From Poseidonibacter lekithochrous (GTDB taxonomy: Bacteria; Campylobacterota; Campylobacteria; Campylobacterales; Arcobacteraceae): DNA of 64,000 bases. Position 1 is the first letter of the stretch; each line of letters opens with the position of its first letter. Position numbers and translations under genes: made by a program. Positions 11,916 through 62,369 of the stretch are shown piece by piece. Below the pieces are notes generated by a model that worked only from the letters and a program-made list of their open reading frames with translations, was not told the origin of the DNA and ran no database searches. The stretch is from the NCBI RefSeq assembly GCF_018861145.1, contig NZ_JAHKQT010000023.1, positions 248,001 through 312,000 on the forward strand. Reading direction: 5' to 3'.

Positions 11916-12571
11916 TTATTTAAATTTCCAGAGTTAAGCTCATAAGTTTTTTCACATCGAGTTGCTACATCTTTTGAATGAGTTACTAAAATCAAAGTAG
12001 TGTTATTTTGCTTTATTAACTCAAAAAGTTTATCCATAACTGCAATCCCAGTCTCTTCATCTAAGTTTCCACTTGGTTCATCTGCTAATATAATTTTAGG
12101 ATTATGAATAAGCGCCCTTGCAATTGCAACACGTTGTTTCTCACCACCACTTAACTGTGAGGGCAAATGATCTAATCTATGAGATAGCCCTACACTTTTT
12201 AAAAGCTCAATTGCTTTTTCTTTTGCATTTGCAATATTACAAACTTTTGCAGGAAGCATCACATTTTCTAAAGCATTTAAATAAGAAACTAAATGAAAGT
12301 TTTGAAAGATAAAACCAATATTTGTAGCTCTAAAGTCATTTAATTCACTCTCTTGTAAATCTTTATAAGAAACAGAGTTTAAAATAATATCACCAGAGTC
12401 TGCTTTAATAATCCCTGAGATTAGTGAAAGCAGTGTTGATTTACCACTTCCTGATTTTCCCATAATAGCAACTCTTTCACCCTCTTTTAAATGAAAGTTT
12501 AGATTTTCAAATATTTCAATCTTTTGTGAGCCTTGGATATAGGCCTTTTTTAGTGATTTTAATTCTAACAT
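11909..12571 (-). CDS. ABC transporter ATP-binding protein, YbbA/LolD type
   Basis: 220 residues with a full set of ABC motifs: Walker A GKSGSGKST, Q-loop FIFQNFHLV, signature LSGGEKQRVAIARAL, Walker B IILADEPSGNLDE and switch His LVTHS. This is the MacB/LolD/YbbA class. The start codon overlaps the tesA stop in TAATG, and the 3' end overlaps the permease, so the three genes are one translationally coupled operon. Confidence 0.93.
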   Translation of the reverse strand: MLELKSLKKAYIQGSQKIEIFENLNFHLKEGERVAIMGKSGSGKSTLLSLISGIIKADSGDIILNSVSYKDLQESELNDFRATNIGFIFQNFHLVSYLNALENVMLPAKVCNIANAKEKAIELLKSVGLSHRLDHLPSQLSGGEKQRVAIARALIHNPKIILADEPSGNLDEETGIAVMDKLFELIKQNNTTLILVTHSKDVATRCEKTYELNSGNLNKC

Positions 12572-13179
12572 TATAATTTTTCCTTTAAAAATTCGAAAAC
12601 TTCTTTTGCAATATATTTATGACCATCAACATTTGGATGAATTCCATCTCTTTGATTTAACTCTTTAACTCCTGCAACTCCTTGCAGTAAAAAAGGCATA
12701 GATTCTAAATTGTATTTAATTTTTATATTTTCATACATTTTTTTAAATTGTTGTGAGTAATCAGGGCCATAATTAGGTGGAATTAACATTCCTGCTAATA
12801 AAACTTTTGCATTTGATTTTTGTGCGTATTGAATAATCTCTTCTAAGTTCTTTTGACTTGATTCAAGATTTAAACCTCTTAATCCATCATTTGCTCCAAG
12901 TGCTAAAAAAACGATATATGGCTTCTTTTTTAAATACCATTTAAGACGTGAAAGTCCATCACTAGTTGTTGAACCACTTACTCCTGCATTTATTACTGTG
13001 ATGTCTTTTTTAAGTTCACTTTGTATTAAAGTTTCAACTAACTTTGGAAATGCCTCTTCTTTATTTACGCCTAATCCTTCAGTTAAAGAATCACCTAAAA
13101 AAAGAATATTATTTGAGTTTGCGCTTAGTATTTGTATGTTTATTAAAAACAGTATTAATATAAATTTTTTCATGCGCAA
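12571..13179 (-). CDS. tesA: SGNH lipase/arylesterase, TesA-like
   Basis: 202 residues with a signal peptide (~1-22) and the four SGNH blocks: GDSLTEGLG (nucleophile Ser), Gly in NAGVSGSTTSDG, GANDG, and DGIHPNVDGH (Asp and His). It acts as a periplasmic thioesterase, lysophospholipase or arylesterase. It is the first gene of the operon with the YbbA/YbbP-type ABC pair. Its promoter lies in the 13180-13268 gap shared with ycaO; a TATTAT box is visible on the minus strand. Confidence 0.9.
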   Translation of the reverse strand: MRMKKFILILFLINIQILSANSNNILFLGDSLTEGLGVNKEEAFPKLVETLIQSELKKDITVINAGVSGSTTSDGLSRLKWYLKKKPYIVFLALGANDGLRGLNLESSQKNLEEIIQYAQKSNAKVLLAGMLIPPNYGPDYSQQFKKMYENIKIKYNLESMPFLLQGVAGVKELNQRDGIHPNVDGHKYIAKEVFEFLKEKL

Positions 13180-32190: not shown

Positions 32191-33066
32191 TTATACGCTT
32201 AACATTTCTTGTTCAAGAGTTATTTTATTAGTTTTAATAAAATCTATTAATTCTTGTAATATAAAATCATCTTTTGATTCTATATTTTCATATTTTGTTT
32301 GATGTGAATAATCTTTTTTATAATCTTTTTCTTTTATTATTTTATAAATATTTTCAGGTATTAAAAAAGAGTGTTTTTTACACTTTTTTAGTCTTGGAAT
32401 AATTGTGTTTAAATAGATATTAATCCCTGCTAAATCAAAATCTCCAAAGTGTATATACTCTCCTTTAAAAGTTTCAAGCCACTTGTATTGATAGTTTGTT
32501 TTATACTCACTAATTGATAGGAATAAATACTTTTTATTTTCAGCAAATAAATGTTTATATTTTTTGATTTGCCATACTACTTGAGGATTTTCTACACCTA
32601 CTACAATCACATCATCAAGTAATTCTAACTTTGAAGAATAGTGCAAAAATAAGCCAGTTGCTTGTATATTTGGATAAAGATATTCTTTTTTATTATTGAA
32701 AGTAACTTCTAACTTATCTAATACAGCTATCATCAAGCCATTAAAACTTTTTGATTCTACTCTTTTTGTATCTGAATAATCATTAGCTACATCATCACGA
32801 CTTTTAGGTATTTCTTCTTGATTTATAAAGTGCTCTATATCTCTTAAAGATGTTACATTATATCCATTTGCTTTTATTACACCTAAGAGTGCTTTTTCAT
32901 CATTTAGGTATATTTTTACAGGTCTTTCTTCGCTAATTGATATACTATTGCAAGCTAATAATGCACTTAAGAGTTTTTTGTTTTTAAAAGTACTCTTAGA
33001 TATATATTTCTCTTCAAGTAGTATTTTTATAACTATAAAATTATTCTTAGTTATATTAATTGCCAT
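32191..33066 (-). CDS. jetD: Wadjet JetD, Toprim-type nuclease subunit
   Basis: 291 residues. The Toprim core is visible: Glu159 in VVGVENPQVV and the DxD pair Asp209/Asp211 in HFGDFDLAGINIYL. JetD is the subunit that cuts circular plasmid DNA after the JetABC motor has extruded it. The protein is shorter than the ~350-400 residues I remember for common JetD proteins, with a reduced N-terminal arm region. It is the last gene of the operon, 13 bases after jetC. Confidence 0.88.
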   Translation of the reverse strand: MAINITKNNFIVIKILLEEKYISKSTFKNKKLLSALLACNSISISEERPVKIYLNDEKALLGVIKANGYNVTSLRDIEHFINQEEIPKSRDDVANDYSDTKRVESKSFNGLMIAVLDKLEVTFNNKKEYLYPNIQATGLFLHYSSKLELLDDVIVVGVENPQVVWQIKKYKHLFAENKKYLFLSISEYKTNYQYKWLETFKGEYIHFGDFDLAGINIYLNTIIPRLKKCKKHSFLIPENIYKIIKEKDYKKDYSHQTKYENIESKDDFILQELIDFIKTNKITLEQEMLSV

Positions 33067-33079
33067 TACAAATCATCTC

Positions 33080-36000
33080 TTACCAGTCATCCATTGCATT
33101 TCTTGCATCAATTAAGTTAAGTTCAACATGATTAGAGCTCTCTCTAGTACCCATATATATTCTTGGATATGCTTCAATAATATCATCATCATTTGCAGCA
33201 GTACCGTTTATAAAAACAAATTCTAAGTGTTTTGCATATTTCATTAACTCAGTAAAATAATCTGCTGAAATTTGTCCAATTTCATCAATAATACAGTGAT
33301 ATGTTATATCTTCACTATTTACAAACTTATTTGCAACCATACGAAGTAAAGTAATATAAATAATAGCTTTTATCATAATAGAAGTACCATTACTTCCTAC
33401 ACTATCAAGTGTAGCTATTCCTTTTGTAACTTGTGCATTTTCACTAACATCAAAAGTTAGAGTACTAATATCAGCAACTGTAATACTTTTTTTGAAGGTT
33501 TTATCAAGTACTATTTTTAAATCTTGCGCTATTTTTACTAGTTCATTTTTTAATTCATCTGCTCTTTGACTTTTTTCATAACCTATAAGCATATTTGCAC
33601 TTAGCATATCACCAATACTCTCTATTTTACTTACAACTTCATCTTTTCCTATATCTTTAAAATTTAATCTAATAGAGTCAATTACTGCAATATTTTCAAT
33701 ACCTTTTCTAATAGTAAGATTTATCTTATTTACATCTTTTACAATACTATTAAAAGTACCTTTTATATGTGATATTTTACTTACAGCATCGTTAATAGCT
33801 TCTATTAACCTATGAAGTTGTAAACTAGTTCCTTCAATATCAAACTTTGTTTTAATAAAATCTACATAAGATTTAGCTATTAAAATATATTGTTCTATAT
33901 TGTCTTCAAAGCTGTTTATATCAAATTTTGTTTTTAATTGCATCATATTATCAGCAGGAATACCATCAATTACTTTTCCAGTTTCTAAAATAATAGTTTT
34001 TTCTCTATCAGTTTCTTGAGATAATAGAATTTTAAATCTTTCTAATATGTTAATATTTTTCTTACTTTTAAGAAGTAATACAATCTCATCATCACTATAA
34101 GCTTCATATATTTTATCAAGTTTTAGTTCAGATATTTCTAGTTCAAAGTTTTTAAAAGACTCATTATAATTCTTCCAAATATCTATTTCTTTTTCAATTT
34201 CTTTTAAATCAAGAGTAAGAACTGTAAGCTCTTTTTCAAAATAATCTCTATCCTTATCTCTTTGTTTAATCATTTGTTCATATTGTTCATTTAAAAAAGG
34301 AACTTTTTTATAGTTTGGCTCTACTTCATCTTTATATCTTATAACTAAGGCTCTGTTTTTATTAATATCTCTAAGAGATTTTTCTATGAGTTTTATATTT
34401 TTTTGATATGATTCAAGTTCATTGATATCAATGTTTTCTTTTTTCTTGATTTCATTATATATAGCATGAATTTCTTTATCTGAAGTATTTATAAGTTCTA
34501 AATATTTTTTATTTATACTTTTAATACTTTGTATACAAATATTTAATTCACCAGATAACTTTCTTTCATCATCTTCATATTTTTTATTAACTTTGAAAAT
34601 AAAAGCTGACTTGTTTTCTTTTATATTTGATATATACTCTTTTAGTGTTTGTAGTTGCTCTTTATCTTTTTTAAGGTTTTCTTTTTTATCAAGTATTGTT
34701 TTGTCAAGTTCATCTTTTAATCTTAGAATTTCATCTTCTAATCTTTTTGATTCGTTTCTAATTTTTATGTCATAATCTTTTACTTTTGGACTTAATTCAT
34801 AAGCAGCCCTAGTTTTTTCTTTAATTGTTTTGTCATATTTATTAGCAATTGTTTTTAGATTATCTTGTGAATTTTTATACCTAATATTATATCTTGATAC
34901 TAATTCATCATGTTGTTTTTGCAAAGATGTTTTATTGTTTTCAAGCGTTTCAATATCATATTTACTAGCAAGTGCTTCAATATTTCCATCAATTTTTAAG
35001 CCATAAAAAGTGTCATTACTCTGATGTACAGAATATTTTAAATTACGCTCATCAAATAAAATATCATCACTAGATAAGGCTAATATCTTTCTTTTATTTG
35101 GTACATCATTTTTATTTAAAAATCCAAATAAGTTGTTTTTATCAATATCTAGTTTTGCATTAACTTTTTCTAGTTTAGTACTAAGTTCAGCTTTATTTTT
35201 AATATATATACTAACTTCATTTTCAATTTTTATATTAGCTTCTTTTAGATTTTCATCTTTTTGTTTTTGAAGACCTTCTTTTTCACTTTCTAAAACTATA
35301 ACTTGGGATTCAATAGAGTTTTTTAAACTATCTAATCTTTGTATTTCTTCTTTGATTTTTTTTGTATTATTGTTCTCTAACGTTTGCTTTGGTAAATATG
35401 AAAGTGCAGTTTCATCTTGAGATATTTTCTTATCTAGTTTTGTATATTCAAGGTTTTTATCTTCAAGTTCTTTATCAAAAGAGCTTACACCTGTTTGTAT
35501 TTCAATCTCTTTATTTTTTGATAGGTTTAATAACTTATTGTTTAAATCATCTTTTTTATTATCAAGTTCTTGTTTTTCTATATCTTTTTTTTCATTTATA
35601 AGTGCAGTTTCTTTTTGTTTTTTTGTTTTTTCTTCTGCTTCAAGTTCTTCAATACTACTTGATATTGCACTTACTTTAATATTTAGTTCATTAAGTTTTT
35701 TTTCATACTCACTTTGTCTATTTTGCTCTTTTATTAAATTATCTATTCTATATTGTTGATGGAAGTTATTATAGTTTTTTTCATTTGTTTTAATCTCTAT
35801 ACTTAAATCTGAGATTTGAGAATTATAGTTATTTAGTTTAATTTTCCATTCATTTAAGAAGCTGTTTTTCTTATCACTTTTTATTTTTTGCTGTGCTAAT
35901 AAATCTAGATGATTATTGTTTATTACTTCTTTTATTCTGTCTTTGTTATAAGACATTGTTTCAAGTTCAAAGGTAGTTTTATCTATCTCATCACATAAAG

Positions 36001-36778
36001 CTTTATAAGAAATAATTGTATCATCAAGTTTTAATATTCTCTCTCTTCTATCCTCTATTAGTTCAAAATGAGCCACGTTTTTTAAAGCATCTGATAATTT
36101 ATTTTTAAAGTCTAAAATATCTAATGAGTACTCTTTTTCACCAATTAGTGAAATAAGCATATCTTTTATACCTTTATCTCTAACTGATGAATTTGAATAG
36201 ATATTAAAAAGGTATTTACCAAAAATATGTGCTGACTCTTCACTATCATAAAAAGAAAAATCAATATTTGGTTTATCTTTATTTGGAAGCATTCTATAGC
36301 TTTTTTTGCACATCATTTTTCTAAAAGTACTTACTGTTTCACTTTTATAATAAGTTAGAAAGTTTTTTGAACAATTTGCTAAAATTTCTTTTAAATTTAA
36401 ACATCTTTTATCTTCATCTAAATATAAAGTGCTTATATCTTCTTGGAAATTATGAATATTTATAAAGGTATGTTTTACTTTACCCTCATCTTTACTTAAT
36501 ATTAAAGCATTTCTTCCAATACTATTTTCATATATATAAATAAGATGCGAATACATACTATCTAAATGCCAATCATAGAAACTAAGTTCTTTATCAACAG
36601 GTCTAGTTTTAGATTTATCCATAGTATAAAAATAACATATAGCACTCATAACAGTAGTTTTTCCAACTCCTGAACTTCCAAGTAAAAGTGTAAAGTCATC
36701 AAGTAATACTCTTTCATTTGGAAAGTGTCCACTGTTTATAAATCTTATCTCTTTTAATCCAAGTTTATTAGAGTTCAT
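33080..36778 (-). CDS. jetC: Wadjet JetC, SMC-like ATPase
   Basis: About 1232 residues with the SMC/MukB-like order: Walker A GSSGVGKTT near residue 36, very long coiled coils (~250-900) interrupted by a hinge-like stretch (NVNAKLDIDKNNLFGFLNK ~ 540-600), then a C-terminal ATPase half with the signature region SVGSNGTSIM and Walker B IIDEIGQI. With JetA and JetB it forms the loop-extruding motor. I chose the ATG at 36778 over a TTG two codons upstream, because AGAGGA is properly spaced only for the ATG. It overlaps jetB by 11 bases. Confidence 0.92.
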   Translation of the reverse strand: MNSNKLGLKEIRFINSGHFPNERVLLDDFTLLLGSSGVGKTTVMSAICYFYTMDKSKTRPVDKELSFYDWHLDSMYSHLIYIYENSIGRNALILSKDEGKVKHTFINIHNFQEDISTLYLDEDKRCLNLKEILANCSKNFLTYYKSETVSTFRKMMCKKSYRMLPNKDKPNIDFSFYDSEESAHIFGKYLFNIYSNSSVRDKGIKDMLISLIGEKEYSLDILDFKNKLSDALKNVAHFELIEDRRERILKLDDTIISYKALCDEIDKTTFELETMSYNKDRIKEVINNNHLDLLAQQKIKSDKKNSFLNEWKIKLNNYNSQISDLSIEIKTNEKNYNNFHQQYRIDNLIKEQNRQSEYEKKLNELNIKVSAISSSIEELEAEEKTKKQKETALINEKKDIEKQELDNKKDDLNNKLLNLSKNKEIEIQTGVSSFDKELEDKNLEYTKLDKKISQDETALSYLPKQTLENNNTKKIKEEIQRLDSLKNSIESQVIVLESEKEGLQKQKDENLKEANIKIENEVSIYIKNKAELSTKLEKVNAKLDIDKNNLFGFLNKNDVPNKRKILALSSDDILFDERNLKYSVHQSNDTFYGLKIDGNIEALASKYDIETLENNKTSLQKQHDELVSRYNIRYKNSQDNLKTIANKYDKTIKEKTRAAYELSPKVKDYDIKIRNESKRLEDEILRLKDELDKTILDKKENLKKDKEQLQTLKEYISNIKENKSAFIFKVNKKYEDDERKLSGELNICIQSIKSINKKYLELINTSDKEIHAIYNEIKKKENIDINELESYQKNIKLIEKSLRDINKNRALVIRYKDEVEPNYKKVPFLNEQYEQMIKQRDKDRDYFEKELTVLTLDLKEIEKEIDIWKNYNESFKNFELEISELKLDKIYEAYSDDEIVLLLKSKKNINILERFKILLSQETDREKTIILETGKVIDGIPADNMMQLKTKFDINSFEDNIEQYILIAKSYVDFIKTKFDIEGTSLQLHRLIEAINDAVSKISHIKGTFNSIVKDVNKINLTIRKGIENIAVIDSIRLNFKDIGKDEVVSKIESIGDMLSANMLIGYEKSQRADELKNELVKIAQDLKIVLDKTFKKSITVADISTLTFDVSENAQVTKGIATLDSVGSNGTSIMIKAIIYITLLRMVANKFVNSEDITYHCIIDEIGQISADYFTELMKYAKHLEFVFINGTAANDDDIIEAYPRIYMGTRESSNHVELNLIDARNAMDDW

Positions 36779-37334
36779 ATTCAATTTCCTCTATCATATC
36801 TTCTATAAATTTAAATGACCTAAGTATTAAAAATTCTTCTTCTTTATTACCAATACTTTGGGCAAAACCATCATTTTTTAGTCTTAATATTATTGAATCG
36901 ATGGCTTCTCTATTAGTTGAACGTTTCTTTAAAAAGTTCATTTTATCAACCATAGTTTTTAACTCAATATCACCGTTTAATCTGCTTTCAATATCACTAG
37001 CACTATAAGGTCCACCATTTGCTGAACTGATATTTGTATTAAGTAATTTTAAAAATCTATAGATATCTATATAGTCAATATAAGCGTTTACATAAGACTT
37101 AGGAATAGTTTCATAACCTTCAATAATAAAGTAAAAATAACCCTTGTCAGATTCTAAAGAATATCCAAGAATACTAAAAAAAGTTTTTACTTCTTGTTTG
37201 TATTGATATATAAAATTATATGCATCTTTGATTTTGTAATCTGCGCTATTTTCATTTATAAATTTACCATTTACCCTACACTCTTCAATCACTTGAAAAA
37301 TTTCTTTATACTCTTCTAATTGCGATAGATCCAA
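36768..37334 (-). CDS. jetB: Wadjet JetB, kleisin-associated KITE-like subunit
   Basis: 188 residues, acidic, mostly helical with no recognisable catalytic motif. Size and position between the JetA-like and SMC-like genes match JetB (MksE-like, winged-helix KITE protein), which bridges kleisin and SMC heads. The start is a TTG with AGAGGGG in front and only one base after the jetA stop. Called from context and size more than from sequence. Confidence 0.8.
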   Translation of the reverse strand: MDLSQLEEYKEIFQVIEECRVNGKFINENSADYKIKDAYNFIYQYKQEVKTFFSILGYSLESDKGYFYFIIEGYETIPKSYVNAYIDYIDIYRFLKLLNTNISSANGGPYSASDIESRLNGDIELKTMVDKMNFLKKRSTNREAIDSIILRLKNDGFAQSIGNKEEEFLILRSFKFIEDMIEEIEYEL

Positions 37335-37335
37335 T

Positions 37336-38523
37336 TTATCCCCTCTTTATAATATATGGCAATTCTATGCCTTTATGTTCAATAGTTATATCTTTTTCTA
37401 TTTTTAAAAACTTATTGTATTGCAGTGTTGTTCTAATAAAGATTGATAAGAACTGCTTTTTATTTAACTCTTTTTCTTTTAAAAATGAAGCTAAATCTTT
37501 ATCTTGCTTAATAAAACTATAATAGACTTTTTTTGTTCCTAAAATCATTCTTTGTTTTGGTACTTTATTTTGATTAAGTTCTATAGCTTCAGGTCTTTGC
37601 TCTTCTACTTTTATTTCAGAACTTGGTGCAATTTTATTTTCTTTTGCAAGTTCTACTATTGCTGTGATTAAATCATAATCATTCATATATTGAGATTTTA
37701 CTTTTACAGATGGTGCTATATTCTTCAATCTACTTATAACAGAGTCAATATTGCTTTTTTCAAACAACTCACCGTGAACTTTTAGCTTATATAAGTGATT
37801 TAGTTTTTCAATTTTTTTAGCTTCTTTTTCTATATGAATAAGATATTTTGAAAGTTCATTTAATGTTTTGCTTATATTTTCTCTAACATCATGTAGATGA
37901 TGTGCTAAGGCATTAATATGATAAGAAATAGATTCATTTGCAAGTTCATCTATAAAATAAGACTTATACTCAATTAAAAATTTATCAGTATTTGTTACAG
38001 CTTCAGAAAGTGCTGTTAAATCAGCTTTACAATCATATAAGTTTGCTTTTTTAACTTCAAAGTTTACTTCTGCTTTAAACTTCATCTCTTTTTCATTTAA
38101 TGATTCAATTGCTCTATAAATAACCTTTTTAATATTTCTAAAAGAAGAGTTTATTCTTTTTATTTCACTTGAATAGTCATTAAAATCTTTTCTTTTTATT
38201 TTAATATCTCTGATTAGCTTCTTAATAATCTTTTGCTTATCTTCAATATCTTTGATATTTACATCTGTATAAGTTTGTAAATGAGCATTGTAATCATCAC
38301 TTAATAATAAAGAATAAGAGTAATCATCATAATCAAATACATTAAAGTCAATTAGTTTTTCAATTGCAGGTGATAAATCTTTATTTTTATTAGAACTAGT
38401 AGAAGAATAGTATGGCATATTTTCAATATATTCGATACTACCTTTAAAATGAGCTTCGATTATTGCTTCTTTTGCATCATTTTGTACTTTTATGAACTCT
38501 TTTGGATTAATGTTAGTTGTCAT
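37336..38523 (-). CDS. jetA: Wadjet JetA, kleisin-like subunit
   Basis: 395 residues, mainly helical, with coiled coil between ~90 and 250 and a wing-like C terminus. Length and position (first gene of jetABCD) fit JetA (MksF-like kleisin), which closes the SMC ring. The Wadjet subtype cannot be fixed from the sequence by eye. The operon start lies in a 180-base gap facing a divergent binding-protein gene. Confidence 0.8.
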   Translation of the reverse strand: MTTNINPKEFIKVQNDAKEAIIEAHFKGSIEYIENMPYYSSTSSNKNKDLSPAIEKLIDFNVFDYDDYSYSLLLSDDYNAHLQTYTDVNIKDIEDKQKIIKKLIRDIKIKRKDFNDYSSEIKRINSSFRNIKKVIYRAIESLNEKEMKFKAEVNFEVKKANLYDCKADLTALSEAVTNTDKFLIEYKSYFIDELANESISYHINALAHHLHDVRENISKTLNELSKYLIHIEKEAKKIEKLNHLYKLKVHGELFEKSNIDSVISRLKNIAPSVKVKSQYMNDYDLITAIVELAKENKIAPSSEIKVEEQRPEAIELNQNKVPKQRMILGTKKVYYSFIKQDKDLASFLKEKELNKKQFLSIFIRTTLQYNKFLKIEKDITIEHKGIELPYIIKRG

Positions 38524-46227: not shown

Positions 46228-48120
46228 ATGAGTATTTCTAAGAAATTATATTCAGGATTTGGATTAATGATTTTTTTAATCATTATGTTAACAGTAATTG
46301 GTATAAATAGGGTTTCTTTTATTGATAATACTCTTTATAATATAGCTGAAGTAAATTCAGTAAAACAAAGACACGCAATAGATTTTAGAGGTAGTGTTCA
46401 TGATAGAGCTATTTCTATTAGAGATGTTGTTTTATCTTTAGATAAAAACACTCTTTTATTTAAAAAATCTATTGTAGATATAAAAAAACTAGAAGATTCT
46501 TATGCTAATTCAGCAAAATTAATGGATAGTATATTTTTAAAAAAAGAAGGGATTGAAGAAAAAGAAATTGTAATTCTTAATAAAATCAAAGAAGTTGAGA
46601 AAAAAACTATGCCTTTAGTAAAAGAGATAATTAACTCAAAACTTTCAGGAAATCACGAAAAAGCTCTTAATTTACTTACAAATCAAGCAAGTCCACTTTT
46701 TTCAAAATGGTTAAGTGTGATTAATGAATTTATTGATTATCAAGAGGCAAAAAATCAAATAGCAACTCCACAAGCAAGAGATGTTGCAAGTAGTTTTTCT
46801 ATTTTAATGATTACAATTTTAATAATTTCATTAATTTTAGGTTCACTTGTTGCTTATTTCATTTCAAAACAATTATCAAGTTCTGCTTGTACTATTCAAA
46901 ATGGCTTACAAGAATTCTTTTCTTTTTTAAATAAAGAAAAAGAGTCAACAGCTTTAATCACACTAGATACAAAAGATGAATTTGGTCAAATGGCCAAAGT
47001 AATTAATGAAAATATACAAAATACAAAAAATCTTATTGTTCAAGATAATGAATTAATTGAAGATGTAAAAAGAGTTGTAAATGAAGTTAAAAAAGGTAAA
47101 TTAAATGAAAAAATACTTAAATCAACTCAAAATCAAAACCTTGAAGAACTAAAAAATAGTTTTAATGAAATGCTTGAAAATACAGCAAAAAATGTTTGTG
47201 AAGATATAAATAAGATAACAAAAATTTTAGATAACTTTGCTAATCTTGACTTTAGAGATAGAGTAGAAAATGATAAGGGAATTGTTTCAATAGGATTAAA
47301 TAATTTAGCTCAAATTATTAATGAGATGTTAGTTGAGAATAAATCAAATGGCTTAACACTCGATAATAGCTCAAATATTTTACTTAAAAATGTTATTGAA
47401 CTAAATAAAAGTTCAAGTGAAGCTGCAACTTCTTTAGAACAAACAACAGCCGTTTTAAATGAAATAACAACAAATATAAGAAATAATACGCAAAATATTG
47501 GGAAAATGTCTTCTTATTCAAATAGTGTTACAAAATCAGCAAATGATGGTGAAAAACTTGCTAATCAAACTACTATTGCTATGGATGATATAAATACTCA
47601 AGTTAATACAATAAATGAAGCTATTAGCGTGATTGACCAAATTGCATTTCAAACAAATATCCTTTCACTAAATGCAGCAGTTGAAGCAGCAACTGCTGGT
47701 GAAGCTGGAAAAGGCTTTGCCGTTGTTGCACAAGAAGTACGAAACTTAGCAAATAGAAGTGCAGAAGCTGCACATGAAATAAAAACAATTGTTAAAAATG
47801 CTACAGATAAAGCAAATCATGGAAAAGAAATTGCCAGTCATATGATAGAAGGATATAAAGAATTAAATGAAAATATATCATTAACAATAAATTTAATCTC
47901 AGATATCGAAACATCAAGTAAAGAGCAACTTTCAGGAATAGAACAAATTAATCAAGCAGTAAATCAATTAGATCAACAAACTCAACAAAATGCAAAAATA
48001 GCTTCTCAAACTCATGAAGTAGCAGAAACAACAGATAAAATTGCAAAATTAGTTGTAAGTAGTGCAAATGAAAAAGAGTTTATTGGTAAAAATGAAGTAA
48101 CAGCAAAAATTGATTTTTAA
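46228..48120 (+). CDS. Methyl-accepting chemotaxis protein
   Basis: 630 residues: membrane helix (~8-28), four-helix-bundle ligand domain (~30-190), second helix (~188-212), HAMP-like region, and the cytoplasmic signalling domain with hairpin tip [19 protein letters not shown]. It ends with a lone [16 protein letters not shown] tail rather than an NWETF-like CheR motif. Cytoplasmic domain signals to CheA/CheW; ligand unknown. ACAGGAGAAT precedes the ATG. Confidence 0.93.
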
Positions 48121-49821: not shown

Positions 49822-49991
49822 AAGTATCTTCCCTTATAAATATTTGAATAATAGTAAATATATCTAAAAAAGTTTTAACTCTTACCCTAGGCCATCAATC
49901 ACAAAAACCTATCCTATTGGAAACTTTAAAGTAAATGATGTAAAATACCTAAAATATTATAAAGAAACTTAAAAAATAGAAGGAAAATTAA

Positions 49992-50483
49992 ATGGAAAAT
50001 TATAAAAAAGCATATATTGCAGGCGGATGTTTTTGGGGTATGGAAGATTTGTTTAGAAAAACAAAAGGTATAATTGACACTGAAGTGGGATACCAAGGTG
50101 GAGAAAATGATAACCCTACATATGAAAACCATCCTGGTCATGCAGAAGGTATTGAACTTACTTATGATCCTAAATTAACATCTTTTAAAGAAATCCTTGA
50201 CTATTTTTTTAGAATACACAACCCTACAACAATAGATAGACAAGGTAACGATAGAGGGTCAAGTTACCGTTCAACGATATTCATACAAAATGAAGAAGAA
50301 CTAGAAATAGCTAAAGAGATTATAAAAGTTGTAAATGAATCAGGTAAATGGGAAGCGCCAATTGTTACAACATTGGAACCTTTTGATACATTTTGGCCTG
50401 CTGAAGCATATCATCAAGATTATTTAGTAAAAAATCCTGGTGGATATACCTGTCATTCAGAAAGATTTGGGTCATTTATTTAA
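49992..50483 (+). CDS. msrA: Peptide-methionine (S)-S-oxide reductase
   Basis: 163 residues. Catalytic GCFWGMEDLF near residue 13 (Cys nucleophile), YQGGENDNPTYENHPGHAEGIEL, and a C-terminal resolving Cys in GYTCHSERFG. Repairs oxidised methionine; no MsrB is fused. AGAAGGAAAA precedes the ATG. Followed after 28 bases by the polymerase gene. Confidence 0.95.
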   Translation: MENYKKAYIAGGCFWGMEDLFRKTKGIIDTEVGYQGGENDNPTYENHPGHAEGIELTYDPKLTSFKEILDYFFRIHNPTTIDRQGNDRGSSYRSTIFIQNEEELEIAKEIIKVVNESGKWEAPIVTTLEPFDTFWPAEAYHQDYLVKNPGGYTCHSERFGSFI

Positions 50484-50511
50484 TAAAATTAAACTTATAT
50501 AATGCGAAACT

Positions 50512-52458
50512 ATGAAATATTATATTTATGATGTAGAAACCTTTCCCAATATTTTTACTTGTGTTATACAAAATACTCAAAGCAAAGAGTTAAGAGTATT
50601 TGAACTAAGTTCTAGAAAAAATGACTTAACAAAGTTTTTAAAAACACTTGAATGGTTAAGTAAAAATGAAAAAATATTAGTAGGATACAATAATCTAAAC
50701 TTTGATTATGCTGTACTACAGTTTATCTATAAGAATGCAAAGAATTATTCTATAAAAGAGCTAGTTTACCAGATATTTCTTTTTGCAGATGGACTTATCA
50801 AAAACAATATCATTTATAAAGAAGATAAAAACACTTTAAAAATAGATCAACTTGATCTTATGAAAATCCACAACTTTGACTATAAAGCTACAAGAGTAAG
50901 TCTAAAAGTTTTAGAAGTAAATATGTGTATGGATTCTATTGAGGACTTGGATTTTAAAATAGGTGAAAATATAAAAATAGACGAGTTTGACAATCTAATT
51001 AAATACAACAAACACGATGTAGAAGCTACATTACTATTCTTTGAACACTCAAAAGAAGCCATAGAATTTAGAGAAGACTTAAGTTTAAAATACAATGAAA
51101 ATATGCTTAATTACAGTGATACAAAAATAGGTAAAAGATATTTTATAAGGAATCTAGAAGAAAAACTTGGAAAAGATATTTGTTATGTAAATGGCAAACC
51201 AAAACAAACTATTAGAAACTACTTGGACTTTGGCAAGATTATCTTTGACTATATTAGTTTTGAAACACCAGAGTTTCAAAGTCTACTTAAATATTTAAAA
51301 AAACAGTATTCAAACTCTATGAATGAAGTTTTTTCAAATATCAGCCAAGATAACTTAGAAGAATTAAGCTCATTTTGTACACTAAATTCTAAAAAAGAAG
51401 CCAACTCCTTACATTTAAACTACAAAGATTTTACTTTTTATTTAGGAACTGGCGGTTTGCATGGTAGTGTTGAAAGCAAGTTTTATGATAAAAGTGATGA
51501 GTTCTTAATCATAGATGTTGATGTAGCAAGTTATTATCCATCTATTGTAATTCAAAATAACTTATATCCAGAACACCTTGGAATTGAGTTTGTTGATATA
51601 TATAAAGAGATTCGAGATTTGAGATTTTCTTATAAAAAAGGTACTTCTCAAAACAAAATGCTAAAACTAGCACTAAACTCAACATATGGAGATACAAACA
51701 ATCAATTTAGTCCTTTTTATGACTTCAAGATGACTTTGGATATTACTATAAATGGACAACTGATGTTGTGTATGCTTGCTGAAAAACTTATGCAAATAGA
51801 TTCTGTTTCCCTAATCCAAGCAAATACCGATGGTCTTACTTTTAAAATAGCTAAAAAAGACAAGTCAAAATATGAAGATATATCAAATAAATGGCAAGAT
51901 TTTACAGGACTTGAACTAGAAGAAATAATATATAAAAAGCTATGGATTAGAGATGTAAACAACTATATAGCGTTAAAAGAAAATGGTGAAGCCAAAAAAA
52001 TAGGTGCATATAAATACGACTTAGCATGGAATCAAAACCATTCTTCTTTAGTAGTTCAAAAAGCAGTAGAAGCATACCTTATAAAAGGTATTCAAATTGA
52101 AGAGTTTATACATAATCATAGAAATAAATATGACTTCTTACTAAATTTTAAAGCCACAAGAAATATAGACTTAGTCCTTGAAAAAGTATATTCATTACAA
52201 AAAACTTATATGCCATTATCTAATACTATTAGATATTTTATAAGTAAAAACGGGTTTCCTTTAAAAAAGATTCTTCCACCTCTAAATAAAGATTCAGAAC
52301 AAAGAGTAATAGGAATAAATGTAGGATATAAAGTAGAACTTTGTAATAATATAGAAGACTTCTCTTATGAGTTTTTAGACTTTGATTATTATGTAAAAGA
52401 GGCTTATAAACTAATAGAACCATTTAATCAAAAACAAGAATCACTTTTTGATTTTTGA
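50512..52458 (+). CDS. Family B DNA polymerase, phage-type
   Basis: 648 residues. Exonuclease motifs: DVETF (I), NNLNFDYAVL (II) and YNKHDVEATL (III). Polymerase motifs: A (IDVDVASYYPSIV), B (LKLALNSTYGDTN) and C (IQANTDGLTF). The short form and TDG in place of the cellular YGDTD are typical of phage and plasmid polymerases, not of bacterial Pol II. No capsid, terminase or terminal protein gene is in the window. The SF2 helicase at 52567 follows on the same strand. Confidence 0.85.
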   Translation: MKYYIYDVETFPNIFTCVIQNTQSKELRVFELSSRKNDLTKFLKTLEWLSKNEKILVGYNNLNFDYAVLQFIYKNAKNYSIKELVYQIFLFADGLIKNNIIYKEDKNTLKIDQLDLMKIHNFDYKATRVSLKVLEVNMCMDSIEDLDFKIGENIKIDEFDNLIKYNKHDVEATLLFFEHSKEAIEFREDLSLKYNENMLNYSDTKIGKRYFIRNLEEKLGKDICYVNGKPKQTIRNYLDFGKIIFDYISFETPEFQSLLKYLKKQYSNSMNEVFSNISQDNLEELSSFCTLNSKKEANSLHLNYKDFTFYLGTGGLHGSVESKFYDKSDEFLIIDVDVASYYPSIVIQNNLYPEHLGIEFVDIYKEIRDLRFSYKKGTSQNKMLKLALNSTYGDTNNQFSPFYDFKMTLDITINGQLMLCMLAEKLMQIDSVSLIQANTDGLTFKIAKKDKSKYEDISNKWQDFTGLELEEIIYKKLWIRDVNNYIALKENGEAKKIGAYKYDLAWNQNHSSLVVQKAVEAYLIKGIQIEEFIHNHRNKYDFLLNFKATRNIDLVLEKVYSLQKTYMPLSNTIRYFISKNGFPLKKILPPLNKDSEQRVIGINVGYKVELCNNIEDFSYEFLDFDYYVKEAYKLIEPFNQKQESLFDF

Positions 52459-52566
52459 TGGTATTTTTATTTATTAAAACAGAAAACATTACAAATTGTC
52501 ATTATTTTTTAAGATTAGAATTTTTTTGCATATAATCTAAAAAATTAAATATTCTTAGGAAATATA

Positions 52567-53907
52567 ATGCAATTAATAATAGGATCACAAGTTAAACTTA
52601 TCGATGGAGCTATTGAAAAAATTTTCCCTTATGGAGAAGTTTTGCAATTGTTAAGTAAATTTAAGAATATTTGTACTGATATAAAATGGAATGTAAATGT
52701 ACCTGCAAGAGATAAGTGTAAGATTATAGAAAATCAAGAAACAATTAATATTAAAAATTTTCAGCCGCGTGATTTTCAACAAGATTGTATTGATAAATTT
52801 ACACGAACTACACTTACTGGTTATATTTATGCACCTACTGGCTCTGGAAAAACAAATATCGCTGCATATTTAATTGCTAAAAGAAATATAAGAACACTAT
52901 TTATTGTTCCTAAATATGATTTAGTTAAACAAACAAAAAAAAGATTTCAAGATATTTTAGATATAGACCCAGCAATGATTGGTGAGCTTAGTTCTGCTAA
53001 AAAAGAGTTTGGTGCAGCTATTTTAATTACAACATGGCAATCACTAAACAATGAAGAAACATTACAAAGAGTTAAAGAAGATAAATACTCACAGATTATC
53101 TGCGATGAGATGCATAAAGCTAGTGCAGATGTCTATTATGATGTGGTATCTTCTATACCTGCTATGTATAAACATGGTCTTACGGCAACACCATATAGAA
53201 ATAATATTAAAAATGAACAAAGACTTTACGATTTAGTTGGAAATGAGATTGCAAGTGTTGATATCATAGATTTATATAAAAATGGCTTTTTAGTACAACC
53301 AACTATAAGATTTAAAAATACATATTATAAAATCAATATTGACCAAGAATATTTAAGATCATTAGATTTTAATATAAAACTAGGAATGCTTAAAAAAAAT
53401 ATTGATAAATCAAAAAAGAGAAAAGAATTAATACTAAATGATATTAAAAAATCTCTTCAGCTTGAAAAAAACGAGTTCAAGGCTAATCAATCTGTAATAT
53501 TAGTAAATACTCTTGAATTAGGACTAGCTTTAAAAGAGGAGTTATCACTCTTCTATAATGTCTTATATATTGATGCAAGTACAAAAGCAAAAGAAAGAAA
53601 TGAAATATTTTCTGATTTAACAGAAAACAAAATCACTGATTATGTTCTAATAGGAACTTCTAAACTTCTAGGAGAAGGTACTGACATTCCTTCAATCAAG
53701 AATGTATTTTGCGCAAGTCCTGCTTACCCTCCTTTTGAAGATACAGCACGTTTACAACAAATCATAGGAAGAGCTATGAGACCATTTAAAAATAAAAATA
53801 GAGCACATATAATTATTTACAATGATGAAACAACAGGTTGGATAAATAAAAAGAAAAATGAAGTTTTAGATATTGTAATTAATAATGTGAAGCCTATTTT
53901 TTCGTAA
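52567..53907 (+). CDS. SF2 DEAD/DEAH-type helicase, phage-like
   Basis: 446 residues: Walker A APTGSGKTN, motif II ICDEMHKA, motif III TATPYRN, and motif VI QIIGRAMRPF. The type (short, with DEMH) is found in phage replication modules and some defence systems. AGGAAATATA precedes the ATG. With the family-B polymerase it forms a two-gene unit; no primase, SSB or origin is visible close by. Confidence 0.88.
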   Translation: MQLIIGSQVKLIDGAIEKIFPYGEVLQLLSKFKNICTDIKWNVNVPARDKCKIIENQETINIKNFQPRDFQQDCIDKFTRTTLTGYIYAPTGSGKTNIAAYLIAKRNIRTLFIVPKYDLVKQTKKRFQDILDIDPAMIGELSSAKKEFGAAILITTWQSLNNEETLQRVKEDKYSQIICDEMHKASADVYYDVVSSIPAMYKHGLTATPYRNNIKNEQRLYDLVGNEIASVDIIDLYKNGFLVQPTIRFKNTYYKINIDQEYLRSLDFNIKLGMLKKNIDKSKKRKELILNDIKKSLQLEKNEFKANQSVILVNTLELGLALKEELSLFYNVLYIDASTKAKERNEIFSDLTENKITDYVLIGTSKLLGEGTDIPSIKNVFCASPAYPPFEDTARLQQIIGRAMRPFKNKNRAHIIIYNDETTGWINKKKNEVLDIVINNVKPIFS

Positions 53908-57374: not shown

Positions 57375-58313
57375 TTAATTCCCACAGCTTTTACAAAAAA
57401 CTTCTTTTTGTGTAAATGTATTTAAACCTTTTCTTTGTGTAGTATTACAGTTTATGCAGATAAAACTAAGCATTTCATGTCCCATATATTTTTTTGAAGC
57501 TTGAATATCTTTAAATTTATTTAAATTTTTTGGATTTAACTTTGAAGTAATATCAATTTTTTCTTCTTTACTAGGTGTATCTTGAATATTCTCTTTAGTC
57601 TTTACATCTTTAATTCTATATTTTTTATCATAATCAATTAAAATAGGTTTATGCTCATTTATAAGAATATTTGCAACATTTTCTAGATTTTTAGTACTTG
57701 GTAAGTTATTTGTTATCATTTTTGCTGCGGCAGATAAAATTTTTAAAGGACTTTTTTTAAACTGACTTCTAATATCTTCAATAAATGTATCTGCCCTACA
57801 GAATTTTTTAGGAAGAACTTTATTTTTAATTTTAACACCTGGTAAAAAGACAACATAAGACATAATATCCATTTTTATATTGTACTTTTTTAAAATTTCT
57901 TCTAATACTAAAGCATGTCTTTGTGATTGCGCTAAAGGACTTGGAAGATTATGTGACTCTTTAGGATAAGTGTATAACATTGTTCCATCATCATTTATTG
58001 TTACTTCTGCTTTCGTATTTTTAGTTTCAACTAAAATAATACCTACTGCAACATTAATCAATAAATGGTCAATCTGTGCAGTTAATCCATCTATTTCAAA
58101 TCTTAAGTCATGTAATACCATATAGTTCTCACTATCTTTTAAATTAAAATCTATAAAGTAAGCAGTTTCTTTTTCTCCTTTTAACCCTGATTCTAACTTT
58201 GTTAATTCTTGTCTTATTATATATTTTTGTTTTTCATTATTTGAGAGTTTAAGCTTGTTCTTTAAACATTGAATATCTTCTTCTTTTCTTTTATCAATCT
58301 CTTTTAATAACAC
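57375..58313 (-). CDS. NERD-domain protein with C-terminal zinc ribbon
   Basis: 312 residues: coiled coil (~1-45), NERD domain (~50-175; YFIDFNLKDSENYMVLHDL and IDHLLINVAVGIILVETKN with the D...ExK nuclease-like core), a linker, and a zinc ribbon at the C terminus (Cys286, Cys289, Cys307, Cys310). NERD proteins are thought to be nucleases or nucleic-acid processing factors. Starts with GTG, supported by AAGGA eight bases upstream. It lies between the ORF6N remnant and the YobI-type gene, a neighbourhood that looks mobile. Confidence 0.85.
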   Translation of the reverse strand: MLLKEIDKRKEEDIQCLKNKLKLSNNEKQKYIIRQELTKLESGLKGEKETAYFIDFNLKDSENYMVLHDLRFEIDGLTAQIDHLLINVAVGIILVETKNTKAEVTINDDGTMLYTYPKESHNLPSPLAQSQRHALVLEEILKKYNIKMDIMSYVVFLPGVKIKNKVLPKKFCRADTFIEDIRSQFKKSPLKILSAAAKMITNNLPSTKNLENVANILINEHKPILIDYDKKYRIKDVKTKENIQDTPSKEEKIDITSKLNPKNLNKFKDIQASKKYMGHEMLSFICINCNTTQRKGLNTFTQKEVFCKSCGN

Positions 58314-58752: not shown

Positions 58753-61700
58753 TTAAGAATTAGTTTTATTTTTAATAACAAGTCTAATCTGATCTTTCTT
58801 TTCAGGCTTATCAGATGTAATAAATTCTCGTGAATATAATAGTTTGATAAGTTTTTTATTATAATCCTTATCAGAAATTAATGGTCTTTTTCCATCAAGT
58901 TTAGCTATTTTACTATATTCATCAGGCATTAATTCTAGTATTTCAATTAATTCTGTATCAACTAAATCACTCTCTTGTTCTACTAATAAGTTAACTTTTG
59001 ATTCTATAGATTCAAGTTGTGTAATCATCATTTTGGTATAGTAATAACCCATAATAATAGTTTTATCTATAATGGAATATATCAATTCTGCAATTCTTGG
59101 ATTACTTATAAAATCATAATCTATTAGCTCAATAATTTCTTTTTTATTTTTATCAGAAATATTTTTTGATTCCAATAACTTTGTAATATCATCACTATCT
59201 ATAATAAAATCAGAATAATTTTCAATAAACTCATTTATATTTTTTTCTAAAAAAACTATATGTTGATTTTCACTATTTTCTTTTAATTGTTCAAAGTTTG
59301 TATTTCCAAATTTTAGAATAACATCATTAACCAATATATTTATTTTTTCTTCTTCGAGTTTTGACAAATCAATATCTTCATAATGGTATCCATTCTTTTT
59401 GACTAAATTTGAATAAGAAACTAAATTAAACTTATTACACTCAATCAATTCTTTCAATAATGTTAAATTAAAATTTGAATGTAGTTCTTTATATTTTTTA
59501 TCTATACGAATATCTAATAACTCTTTTGAATTTTCTCCTATATCTAGAAATTCAATTAAACTATCATCTAATCCTTCAACATAATTGTAATATTCTGAAA
59601 CATTTTCCCAAGATGAAATCAACTTGTTATTGTTTAATAATTCAGTCCATAAATCTTTTTCTTTTATAGAATTAATTTCTAATATTCTTTGTTCTTGATG
59701 TTTTATAATTTCTACTTTTAATTCTTTTTCAACTTCTTCAACTTCTTCATCATTAAGTAATTTAAGTATAGTAGATTCAGATTCACCAACATTTGTCTTG
59801 ATTTTTAAATTCACATTTTTAATATATTCGTTGATATTCTCAGATATATATTGTTTTAGATTTTCAGCACTTGAATCTAAAATTACTGTGTAATGTGCCT
59901 TTGATAGACTATCATATATATTAGCATCGTAATCATTTTGAACAAAAATAATATAATCTATCATTTTTCGATTAAGTTCATAAAAATTATTTTCATAAAT
60001 AAATTTAAATGGTGTAATTTTGTCTTTATCTTCTCTAAAGAACTTGAACTTAACATTTAATTTACTTATTATAGATGTTAATCTATTATTAAATGCTTCA
60101 TGAGGGCTATTAAATTCTTTTAGTGCTTCTATATAATTTTTTAAAGTATTATCAATATTCAAGTTAAAAATATTGTCAAACTCTAAATTATGTAGTAATA
60201 TATAGAAATATTTACTTTTTTCTTCATCAGTTCTATTCATTACGATATATTTCCATATTGATGGATAATATTTAACTAAGCCTTTTATAAAAGCAACAAT
60301 ATTAGGTTGAGTATTTAGATAAGAAAAAATAAATTCTATCGAAGATTCACTCTCATTTGATAACTGCTTAAATATTTGAATAAATTGTTTAGGATAATCA
60401 CTTTTATTGTCAAGTATATAGAGTAATAATTGGAAATTTAGAACTGATTCTTTTTTAAAATCTCTAATTTCAAGTCTTTCTTTTCTAAGAATTTCTTTTA
60501 AATTTTTCAACTCATAACTAAAATTAAAGTGAGTTCCATTATTTTTAATATTTAATAAAAAGTCATTATCATTTTTTGAAATACTAACCCCAAAGAAATT
60601 TGATAAATAGATATTATAATCTTTATTTATATGACCATAACTGATCAAATATTTTAAAAGGTCTTTTTTATCAAAATTATCATCAAATACATTTACATCT
60701 TTATATTTATTTATTATTTCTTGAATTGAATAGTTTTCAATTTCAGTAATATCATCTTTCAATTTATTTATTTGATTTAATAATTCATTCTTTTTATTAT
60801 TTGTTTTATCTAAAATAAATTGTTCTCTTTGTTGATATGAATATTTTGAATTGATTTCATCTTCAATATCTTTAAAATTTAAACTTCCATTATAATTATA
60901 ATTATTATAATTTATCTTCTTACTATTTATAATCAGCTCAAAATCTTCATTCATTAATAATTCTTTTAAATCAAATCTATTTCCATCAATATAAATATTA
61001 CCACTAAAGGAAGACGAAAATTTTTCCATAATCTTAAAAAGATAAACCTGTCGTAATTCTCGTACATTTTTATGAAATTCTTTATCTATTTCATCAATTT
61101 TCTGTTGTAAATTTTCAATTTCACTATTTATTTCATCAATCACATTTTTTATATATTCTACTTTTTTATTAAAAACATTATAGACCAATCCTTCATATTT
61201 ATGTAATTTCTCGAAATCTTGTGGCTCAAAATTTTTATAAATAATCATTGCTAGTAATTTTGTTTTATCCAGTCTTGAATCAAGACTCATACTATATATT
61301 TCATATTCATTATAGATATTTTTCAAAAGTCGCATATCTGATATATAAAGTGAAATATCATATAAGAAATTAGTTTTAACTTCATTTTTAAAAAAATCTA
61401 ATAATTTTTCTTTTGAATTAGTTGCATTAATGTAAGGAATAATAGGTATTAAAAAATCAAAAAACTTCGTCCTTTCTTGTTCATTACAAAAGATTTTATC
61501 TTTTACTGCATATATAAATTTTATTTCTCTATCGATTTGTTCTGAATTATTAATAAAGTTATTTAATTCTCTTAATTTTGTGAAAATATCTAAATTTTCA
61601 AATCTATCTAAATCTTGGAAGACAATTACATTAAATGTAGTTTTTTCAAAAAAATACAAAATTTCATCCAAATGTTTATTTAATAAAGATTCATTTTTTT

Positions 61701-61761
61701 TATCATTTGAAACTAATTCCAAATCTTTCAAATTGAGTTTATCAATACTTGTATTACTCAA
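58753..61761 (-). CDS. YobI-family P-loop NTPase, C-terminal part of split gene
   Basis: 1002 codons from an internal TTG that is not the true start. The frame continues upstream to at least 61815 and there reads GILLVGCYYLIEKILFIL, a membrane helix, before LSNTSID. Next comes a KAP-like Walker B (FNVIVFQDLDRFENLDIF), then a very long, charged, helical part with coiled coils (~200-340). The matching N-terminal half (61800-62369) is in another frame. Together they form one YobI-type protein of ~1200 residues, a family of large membrane-linked NTPases of unclear role. See the N-terminal entry for the break. Confidence 0.75.
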   Translation of the reverse strand: MSNTSIDKLNLKDLELVSNDKKNESLLNKHLDEILYFFEKTTFNVIVFQDLDRFENLDIFTKLRELNNFINNSEQIDREIKFIYAVKDKIFCNEQERTKFFDFLIPIIPYINATNSKEKLLDFFKNEVKTNFLYDISLYISDMRLLKNIYNEYEIYSMSLDSRLDKTKLLAMIIYKNFEPQDFEKLHKYEGLVYNVFNKKVEYIKNVIDEINSEIENLQQKIDEIDKEFHKNVRELRQVYLFKIMEKFSSSFSGNIYIDGNRFDLKELLMNEDFELIINSKKINYNNYNYNGSLNFKDIEDEINSKYSYQQREQFILDKTNNKKNELLNQINKLKDDITEIENYSIQEIINKYKDVNVFDDNFDKKDLLKYLISYGHINKDYNIYLSNFFGVSISKNDNDFLLNIKNNGTHFNFSYELKNLKEILRKERLEIRDFKKESVLNFQLLLYILDNKSDYPKQFIQIFKQLSNESESSIEFIFSYLNTQPNIVAFIKGLVKYYPSIWKYIVMNRTDEEKSKYFYILLHNLEFDNIFNLNIDNTLKNYIEALKEFNSPHEAFNNRLTSIISKLNVKFKFFREDKDKITPFKFIYENNFYELNRKMIDYIIFVQNDYDANIYDSLSKAHYTVILDSSAENLKQYISENINEYIKNVNLKIKTNVGESESTILKLLNDEEVEEVEKELKVEIIKHQEQRILEINSIKEKDLWTELLNNNKLISSWENVSEYYNYVEGLDDSLIEFLDIGENSKELLDIRIDKKYKELHSNFNLTLLKELIECNKFNLVSYSNLVKKNGYHYEDIDLSKLEEEKINILVNDVILKFGNTNFEQLKENSENQHIVFLEKNINEFIENYSDFIIDSDDITKLLESKNISDKNKKEIIELIDYDFISNPRIAELIYSIIDKTIIMGYYYTKMMITQLESIESKVNLLVEQESDLVDTELIEILELMPDEYSKIAKLDGKRPLISDKDYNKKLIKLLYSREFITSDKPEKKDQIRLVIKNKTNS

Positions 61762-61799
61762 AATAAATAAGATCTTTTCTATAAGATAATAACATCCAA

Positions 61800-62369
61800 C
61801 TAGTAAGATTCCAATTGAAATAATTCAAGGATATCTTTAAGTAAGGTGATATTTGATAAATATTCTGGTTTAAATACTATAAAAAAAGACAACAATGATA
61901 ATAAAATATTAATAATTTTTATTGATAAATGGTCTAATCTATTAATTTTATTTAATCTTGATTGAGGAATTTTATTACTCTTAACTTTATAAAACATTTG
62001 CTCTAAAATACTTTTTTCAATAAGAGATGAATCTATAGAATTATTATCTTCATTCTTTTTATTAAATCTTGCCAATGATATATCTAAAAATTCATACACT
62101 CCATTTTCATGATTCTTTTCAAATGTTTTTATAAAACTACTTTTCCCAGAACCATATGAACCTGATATTGCGATATTTCTTACTTTTATTTCATTTAGTG
62201 CATTTTCTAAAGCGATTGAATATTCTTCTATATTTTCTGCTTTATCATTAGGTGTTAAAAATTGATATCTACTTTCTGTTTTATAATATTTATTTTTTAT
62301 ATAACAATGATAAATATTCAACTTCTTTATTAAAAAAACAATTATCTTATCTAGAAATTTTTCTAGCAT
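61800..62369 (-). CDS. YobI-family P-loop NTPase, N-terminal part of split gene
   Basis: 189 codons: RYQFLTPNDKAENIEEYSIAL (YobI-style start), Walker A GSYGSGKSS at ~70-78 and a first membrane helix (IINILLSLLSFFIVF). The frame ends in ELFQLESY-stop, while the other frame gives LFQLGILLVGCYYLIEK, so the break lies at about 61805-61815 and one missing base explains it. AGAGGATAAT precedes the ATG, so the gene was once expressed. Either a mutation or an assembly error. Confidence 0.75.
   Translation of the reverse strand: MLEKFLDKIIVFLIKKLNIYHCYIKNKYYKTESRYQFLTPNDKAENIEEYSIALENALNEIKVRNIAISGSYGSGKSSFIKTFEKNHENGVYEFLDISLARFNKKNEDNNSIDSSLIEKSILEQMFYKVKSNKIPQSRLNKINRLDHLSIKIINILLSLLSFFIVFKPEYLSNITLLKDILELFQLESY

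Follow-up and report, generated by a model that had tools for sequence, protein, structure and literature searches.

The window (the whole 64,000-nucleotide stretch of Poseidonibacter lekithochrous DNA that was analysed) contains a gene for a family-B DNA polymerase, preceded by msrA and followed by a gene for an SF2 helicase (Table 1). A preliminary description of the locus had reported a 648-residue polymerase with complete exonuclease and polymerase motifs and a TDG motif C, an SF2 helicase downstream of it, and a chromosomal context free of capsid, terminase and integrase genes. All three observations were reproduced: both reading frames lie where they had been placed, the polymerase motifs could be aligned and the helicase motifs are present, and neither phage structural genes nor a tRNA were found around the window's polymerase.

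Table 1. Features of the polymerase locus, in window coordinates; G numbers refer to individual genomes.
Feature	Position	Strand	Basis or remark
msrA-polymerase-helicase block common to the window and G099, with different flanks	49909..53898	+	91.7% DNA identity over 3995 columns
msrA (peptide methionine sulfoxide reductase), preceding the polymerase in G091, G099 and the window	49992..50483	+	Co-travelling gene
Family-B DNA polymerase, 648 aa, ATG start	50512..52458	+	PHROG 1252; exonuclease and polymerase motifs; fold; chromosomal homologues
C-terminal tail QKQESLFDF (residues 640-648), candidate beta-clamp-binding motif	52429..52455	+	9/9 chromosomal copies, 0/77 viral relatives; host DnaE GSLFGD
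Helicase upstream element AAACATTACAAATTGTCAT (52484-52502), then TATAAT box (52531-52536)	52484..52536	+	Conserved in 11 genomes
SF2 helicase, 446 aa, ATG start, XPB/UvsW-like (PHROG 16)	52567..53907	+	Profile matches

The phrog_1252 'DNA polymerase' profile matched the polymerase over its full length (residues 2-643, E 3.4e-167); searches with Pfam and NCBIfam profiles returned no match. The 3'-5' exonuclease motifs are ExoI (D7/E9), ExoII (GYNNLNFDY) and ExoIII (YNKHD), and the polymerase motifs are A (DVDVASYYPS), B (KLALNSTYG), C (ANTDGL, in the context ANTDGLT) and KxY (GAYKY). All of them align with those of phage relatives (27 relatives in the alignment), and the family-B motifs are retained across the chromosomal copies. 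In the copy of G055 (L038 8063-10051) motif B is interrupted by one inserted residue (LNSAGYGD), and the activity of this copy might be changed or impaired as a result. As ExoI is found at residue 7, so that the protein begins directly at this motif, the polymerase lacks a Pol II-type N-terminal domain.

The AlphaFold model of the polymerase displays a family-B fold, with the Thermococcus polymerase (Z 15.7) and E. coli Pol II (Z 14.3) among its best matches; its overall pLDDT is 63, and it is reliable in the polymerase half alone, to which these matches (Z 14-16) apply. Protein-primed and primer-independent PolB enzymes were absent from the listed fold matches of this model. Only 48 residues separate D337 of motif A from K385 of motif B, leaving little room for a TPR2 insertion when set against the phi29 spacing.

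Chromosomal copies and phage relatives

The distribution of the polymerase was surveyed in 104 Arcobacteraceae genomes, in a phylum sample of 397 genomes and, outside Campylobacterota, by one pattern scan. Close homologues are present in nine Arcobacteraceae genomes, comprising seven of the ten genomes of the genus Poseidonibacter (one of them Poseidonibacter ostreae), where identity to the window copy is 89-95%, and two genomes of other genera, G036 (84%) and G055 (64%). The polymerase is absent from three members of the genus, the assemblies of which are incomplete. Its distribution is patchy, and its function must therefore be dispensable. The sole additional match in the phylum sample lies in G443 and belongs to a phage-type replication module. 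Among the family genomes, G076 contains two distant phage-type copies (29-35% identity; L041 11092-13086 and L042 1772-3772) within a phage-like array of genes on one strand, and these have textbook clamp-type ends, QMKLF and QLTLF.

Examination of the neighbours of homologues across Campylobacterota placed the close ones among ordinary bacterial genes: SelO, Pif1, an M32 peptidase, msrA, TruD and an ABC/FtsX transporter, as well as sulfite reductase, a response regulator, an EamA transporter and a flavodoxin-fold protein. No capsid, portal, terminase, tail or integrase genes were found near the window copy or any of its chromosomal homologues (nine copies). The preliminary description had considered that homologues might always lie within prophages; this is contradicted by the nine chromosomal copies, none of which is in a prophage.

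A total of 953 phage records match the polymerase, none of them above ~42% identity, and full-length IMG/VR relatives reach ~43%, with higher figures for partial segments only. In a careful tree, the eight complete chromosomal copies form a single clade (support 100/100) nested among phages, and the support of this clade was 1.0 in a larger, quick tree to which IMG/VR sequences had been added. Barba/Vibrio phages appeared as the sister group in the careful tree (80/94), a position not reproduced in the larger one. The nearest known counterparts are tailed-phage polymerases of PHROG 1252, those of Sashavirus, Klebsiella phage Kpn BU9, Proteus phage RS10pmA, the Rheinheimera Barba phages and Marinobacter PS6. 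The Poseidonibacter enzyme resembles them in its full-length alignment (37-42% identity), its motifs, the NTDG motif C among them, and the absence of an N-terminal domain like that of Pol II, but differs from them in its chromosomal location away from phage genes, its ESLFDF tail and its membership of a clade of its own.

Among the Poseidonibacter and G036 copies the dN/dS ratio of the polymerase is ~0.05-0.11 (at dS 0.4-1.5); against the G055 copy it is 0.13-0.17, and no stop codon was found in any complete chromosomal copy. That the complete copies form one supported clade under strong purifying selection argues that the polymerase is no leftover. In many pairs it diverges about as fast as DnaE (84 vs 85% identity between the window and G036; 89 vs 88% between the window and G092). 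Two genomes depart from this pattern in opposite directions: in G091 the polymerase (95%) is more similar to that of the window than is DnaE (90%), which points to transfer, whereas in G055 it is less so (64 vs 83%).

DNA homology to the window stops near gene borders, and the combination of genes differs between genomes. The polymerase occurs alone in G036, as a block separate from the helicase in G092, with msrA in G091, with the helicase in G093, G094 and G098, and with both in G099. The msrA gene of the window is of a second, laterally exchanged type, with 90-96% identical copies in G091, G094 and G099; in the five polymerase-free genomes that were searched, MsrA reaches just 40-45% identity. 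The closest relative by DnaE (G096, 97.9%) shares the left flank of the window at 96% DNA identity up to position 49912 and differs beyond the equivalent of that point, ~100 bases from the end of its contig; it has no polymerase in an 86%-complete assembly. Neither a recombinase nor repeats were seen at the block. We propose that the polymerase passes between Arcobacteraceae as a gene-precise cassette, at times together with the helicase or msrA; our guess is that the block might move by homologous recombination following the uptake of DNA. Separately from these events, the chemotaxis-receptor gene of G096 that is homologous to 46228-48120 is broken by an insert with two ORFs of 343 and 254 aa (L118 1892-5732).

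The C-terminal tail

The chromosomal polymerases extend ~10 residues past the C-terminal end of their closest phage relatives, and all nine carry a related motif there: ESLFDF, or SNLFDY in the most distant copy, that of G055 (C-terminus SNLFDYLD). In the Poseidonibacter copies and in G036, ESLFDF at the C-terminal end is invariant, and most of the residues just upstream vary. By comparison, LF, LY, MF and MY are absent from the last ten residues of all 77 IMG/VR homologues whose C-termini are complete, and likewise from those of the closely related named phages. As the tail represents one event in one clade, this contrast does not amount to nine independent observations.

The tail resembles the QxxLF clamp-binding consensus, the sequence QGGNSLF, through which the H. 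pylori replicase is predicted to bind the clamp (PMC4976356), and GSLFGD in DnaE of the host. This last sequence is part of a similar putative clamp site, TGSLFGD or TNSLFGD, near residue 950 of the host replicase. A plain Q..LF search did not pick out a clamp motif in DnaE and gave no convincing one in either PolY protein, and a looser SLF search recovered the clamp-like motif in DnaE. The first residue of the tail motif is variable (Q, L or H), and the Q is likewise variable in host DnaE. From the resemblance of QKQESLFDF to the putative site of DnaE itself, we infer that the tail would bind the host beta sliding clamp. Clamp-type tails can arise more than once, since those of two crAss-like phages (QLELF, QLNLF) and of the G076 copies are distant in the polymerase tree.

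The helicase and its upstream element

The helicase matches the Pfam families ResIII/DEAD and Helicase_C and has the motifs APTGSGKT (P-loop), DEMH and QQIIGRAMR. Its best phage family is phrog_16 (E 1.6e-59), and its best solved relatives are archaeal XPBII proteins (E 3e-18). It has the helicase core in common with T4 UvsW and with SF2 helicases of the XPB-RadD type, but its NCBIfam scores are far under the curated equivalog cut-offs (89.5 of 610 bits for XPB, 56.7 of 720 bits for RadD). Identity to the best phage and archaeal-virus matches is only ~27-30%; the term 'phage-like' in the preliminary description suits the polymerase better. A pattern search of viral contigs found no relatives of the helicase. 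Another SF2 family, phrog_62, is found in the phage-type modules of Marinobacter PS6, phiTHAF39, DSL-LC05, L018 and G443, although Sasha phage encodes a phrog_16 helicase, on the opposite strand. The window's helicase therefore differs in type from that beside most of the sampled phage relatives of the polymerase. Derivation of both genes from one phage module was rejected on the grounds given below for a two-gene unit.

The element upstream of the helicase, AAACATTACAAATTGTCAT, and its TATAAT box are kept whether or not a polymerase gene precedes them. A regulon search revealed no clear second copy of the element in the genome, near-matches being no commoner than those of a reversed-pattern control. 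The intergenic region between polymerase and helicase shows no special RNA fold (z 0.06), and the results of a promoter/terminator scan were at chance level. Probably, this XPB/UvsW-like helicase is under separate control and acts independently of the polymerase in remodelling forks or branched DNA.

Origin and possible role of the polymerase

Bacterial PolB groups G1-G3 have been proposed to have arisen independently, probably from viruses (Kazlauskas et al. 2020, PMC7544198), and eight bacterial family-B groups have since been described, the five minor ones without an N-terminal domain (Timinskas et al. 2026, PMC12926913). By its motifs the chromosomal clade is outside G1 and G3; the minor groups were compared by description only. 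Its ExoII motif is GYN in all chromosomal copies, unlike the GWN of the clade of E. coli Pol II (G1; PMC7544198), and its motif C, ANTDGLT, does not contain the glutamate conserved in G3 (PMC7544198). It shares a proposed viral source with G3 and the minor groups (PMC7544198, PMC12926913) and, going by their description (PMC12926913), the missing N-terminal domain with the latter. No published description of this clade was found in the open-licence literature.

The genome, which has two Y-family polymerases, yielded no further family-B polymerase (PF00136 absent), and PF00136 is present in only one of the 104 family genomes. The explanation we favour, and consider rather likely, is that a tailed-phage replicative polymerase was captured and domesticated by an Arcobacteraceae ancestor and would act as an accessory enzyme on the host clamp. 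After its capture it would have gained the C-terminal tail, which is similar to the DnaE site and could tether it to the clamp; PolB group G1, too, has a beta-clamp-binding motif (PMC12926913). There it would serve in accurate accessory synthesis, dependent on the clamp, where DNA is damaged or stalled, as in gap filling, restart or proofread lesion bypass. An intact proofreading polymerase, a host-like clamp motif and strong selection speak for such a repair or restart role. By analogy, it is best read as doing the job of E. coli Pol II, likewise a proofreading family-B polymerase in a bacterium that replicates with DnaE, without being its orthologue, as it has no PF00136 match, no GWN signature and no N-terminal domain before the exonuclease domain. 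The patchy distribution speaks against this explanation, as does the G055 copy, diverged (64 vs 83% for DnaE) and with an insertion in motif B.

We see evenly balanced chances that the clade represents a further capture of a phage replicase beyond PolB groups G1-G3, independent and comparatively recent, the tail of which imitates the host clamp site and which substitutes for Pol II. If true, a Pol II substitute would exist in a lineage almost entirely devoid of other family-B polymerases, and would supply Arcobacteraceae, nearly all of which have no recognisable Pol II, with a proofreading accessory polymerase. The proposed viral origin of bacterial family-B enzymes (PMC7544198) so far rests on deep, old branches, whereas the present step would be recent, and phage and domesticated forms could be compared side by side in one clade with strong selection and one gained motif.

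An alternative which we regard as unlikely is that polymerase and helicase form a co-functional unit of repair or replication restart, in which the helicase opens or remodels forks. Both are enzymes of a DNA-repair type, encoded on one strand in the window with 108 bp between them and next to each other in four further genomes, and their co-occurrence in the family is above chance (Fisher p 4e-5, a value not corrected for kinship). However, the five genomes with neighbouring genes all belong to one genus, within which the co-occurrence has a p of 0.18. The helicase is present in 12 of the 104 family genomes, with the polymerase adjacent in those five, 11 kb away in G092 and absent in six; the polymerase occurs without it in three, and both are never found together outside the genus. 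Because each gene occurs alone, because they do not co-occur outside the genus and because a conserved element of its own precedes the helicase, we conclude that the adjacency is mostly a neighbourhood effect and the case for a pair weak. Of the 'domesticated replication module' suggested in the preliminary description, the domesticated polymerase is upheld by nine non-prophage copies, selection, a single clade and the tail; the module finds little support.

An anti-phage role, in which a phage-type polymerase has been retained to interfere with phage replication, appears improbable. The region is rich in defence genes, with Tmn/YobI-like and NERD genes 3-8 kb downstream and NACHT, DUF2779 or SF1 helicase genes behind the helicase in sister genomes, and unidentified host mechanisms that target phage polymerases have been proposed (PMC11348598). 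Yet PADLOC (2023 library, described systems only) returned no match to the polymerase and, for the helicase, only matches to part of the helicase core; none of the genes examined around the copies of G036, G055 and G091 is a defence gene, and every catalytic motif of the polymerase is kept. Even less probable is a satellite or other small mobile element that would use the polymerase for its own replication: gene-precise homology borders, a patchy distribution and the G091 copy, suggestive of transfer, would be compatible with it, but genes for an integrase, primase, relaxase or other element function are absent from the block, the gene sets differ between species, and the polymerase alone is the common unit. 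No evidence was obtained for the satellite element or the defence pair envisaged earlier. A decaying prophage remnant, to which only membership of a phage protein family would point, was rejected as exceedingly improbable in view of purifying selection across species (dN/dS ~0.05-0.11), complete copies free of stop codons and the failure to find any phage gene beside the nine chromosomal homologues.

Several further features of the neighbourhood were recorded. On the reverse strand, ORFs of 1002 and 189 aa (58753-62369) jointly match a Tmn/YobI-like ATPase, the N-terminal piece being in a separate frame; judging by its reading frames, the pair is a split or frameshifted defence gene. A NERD-domain protein is encoded at 57375-58313 (-), and a 90% identical copy lies behind the helicase in G093. 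This spot varies in sister genomes, being occupied by NACHT proteins of ~890 aa, DUF2779 or an SF1 helicase with DUF2726; loci of variable defence-like genes are L033 12520-16876, L034 3675-6341 and L035 12544-15078. At 32191-38523 (-), a condensin-like cluster, in which an MksE protein (Pfam) adjoins a 1234-aa protein, is possibly of the MksBEF type; it gave no strong PADLOC match. Finally, a cluster of GDSL lipase, ABC ATPase and FtsX-like permease genes at 9411-13179 (-), ~37 kb from the window's polymerase, immediately follows the polymerase in G092 and G036 and is close to it in G094.
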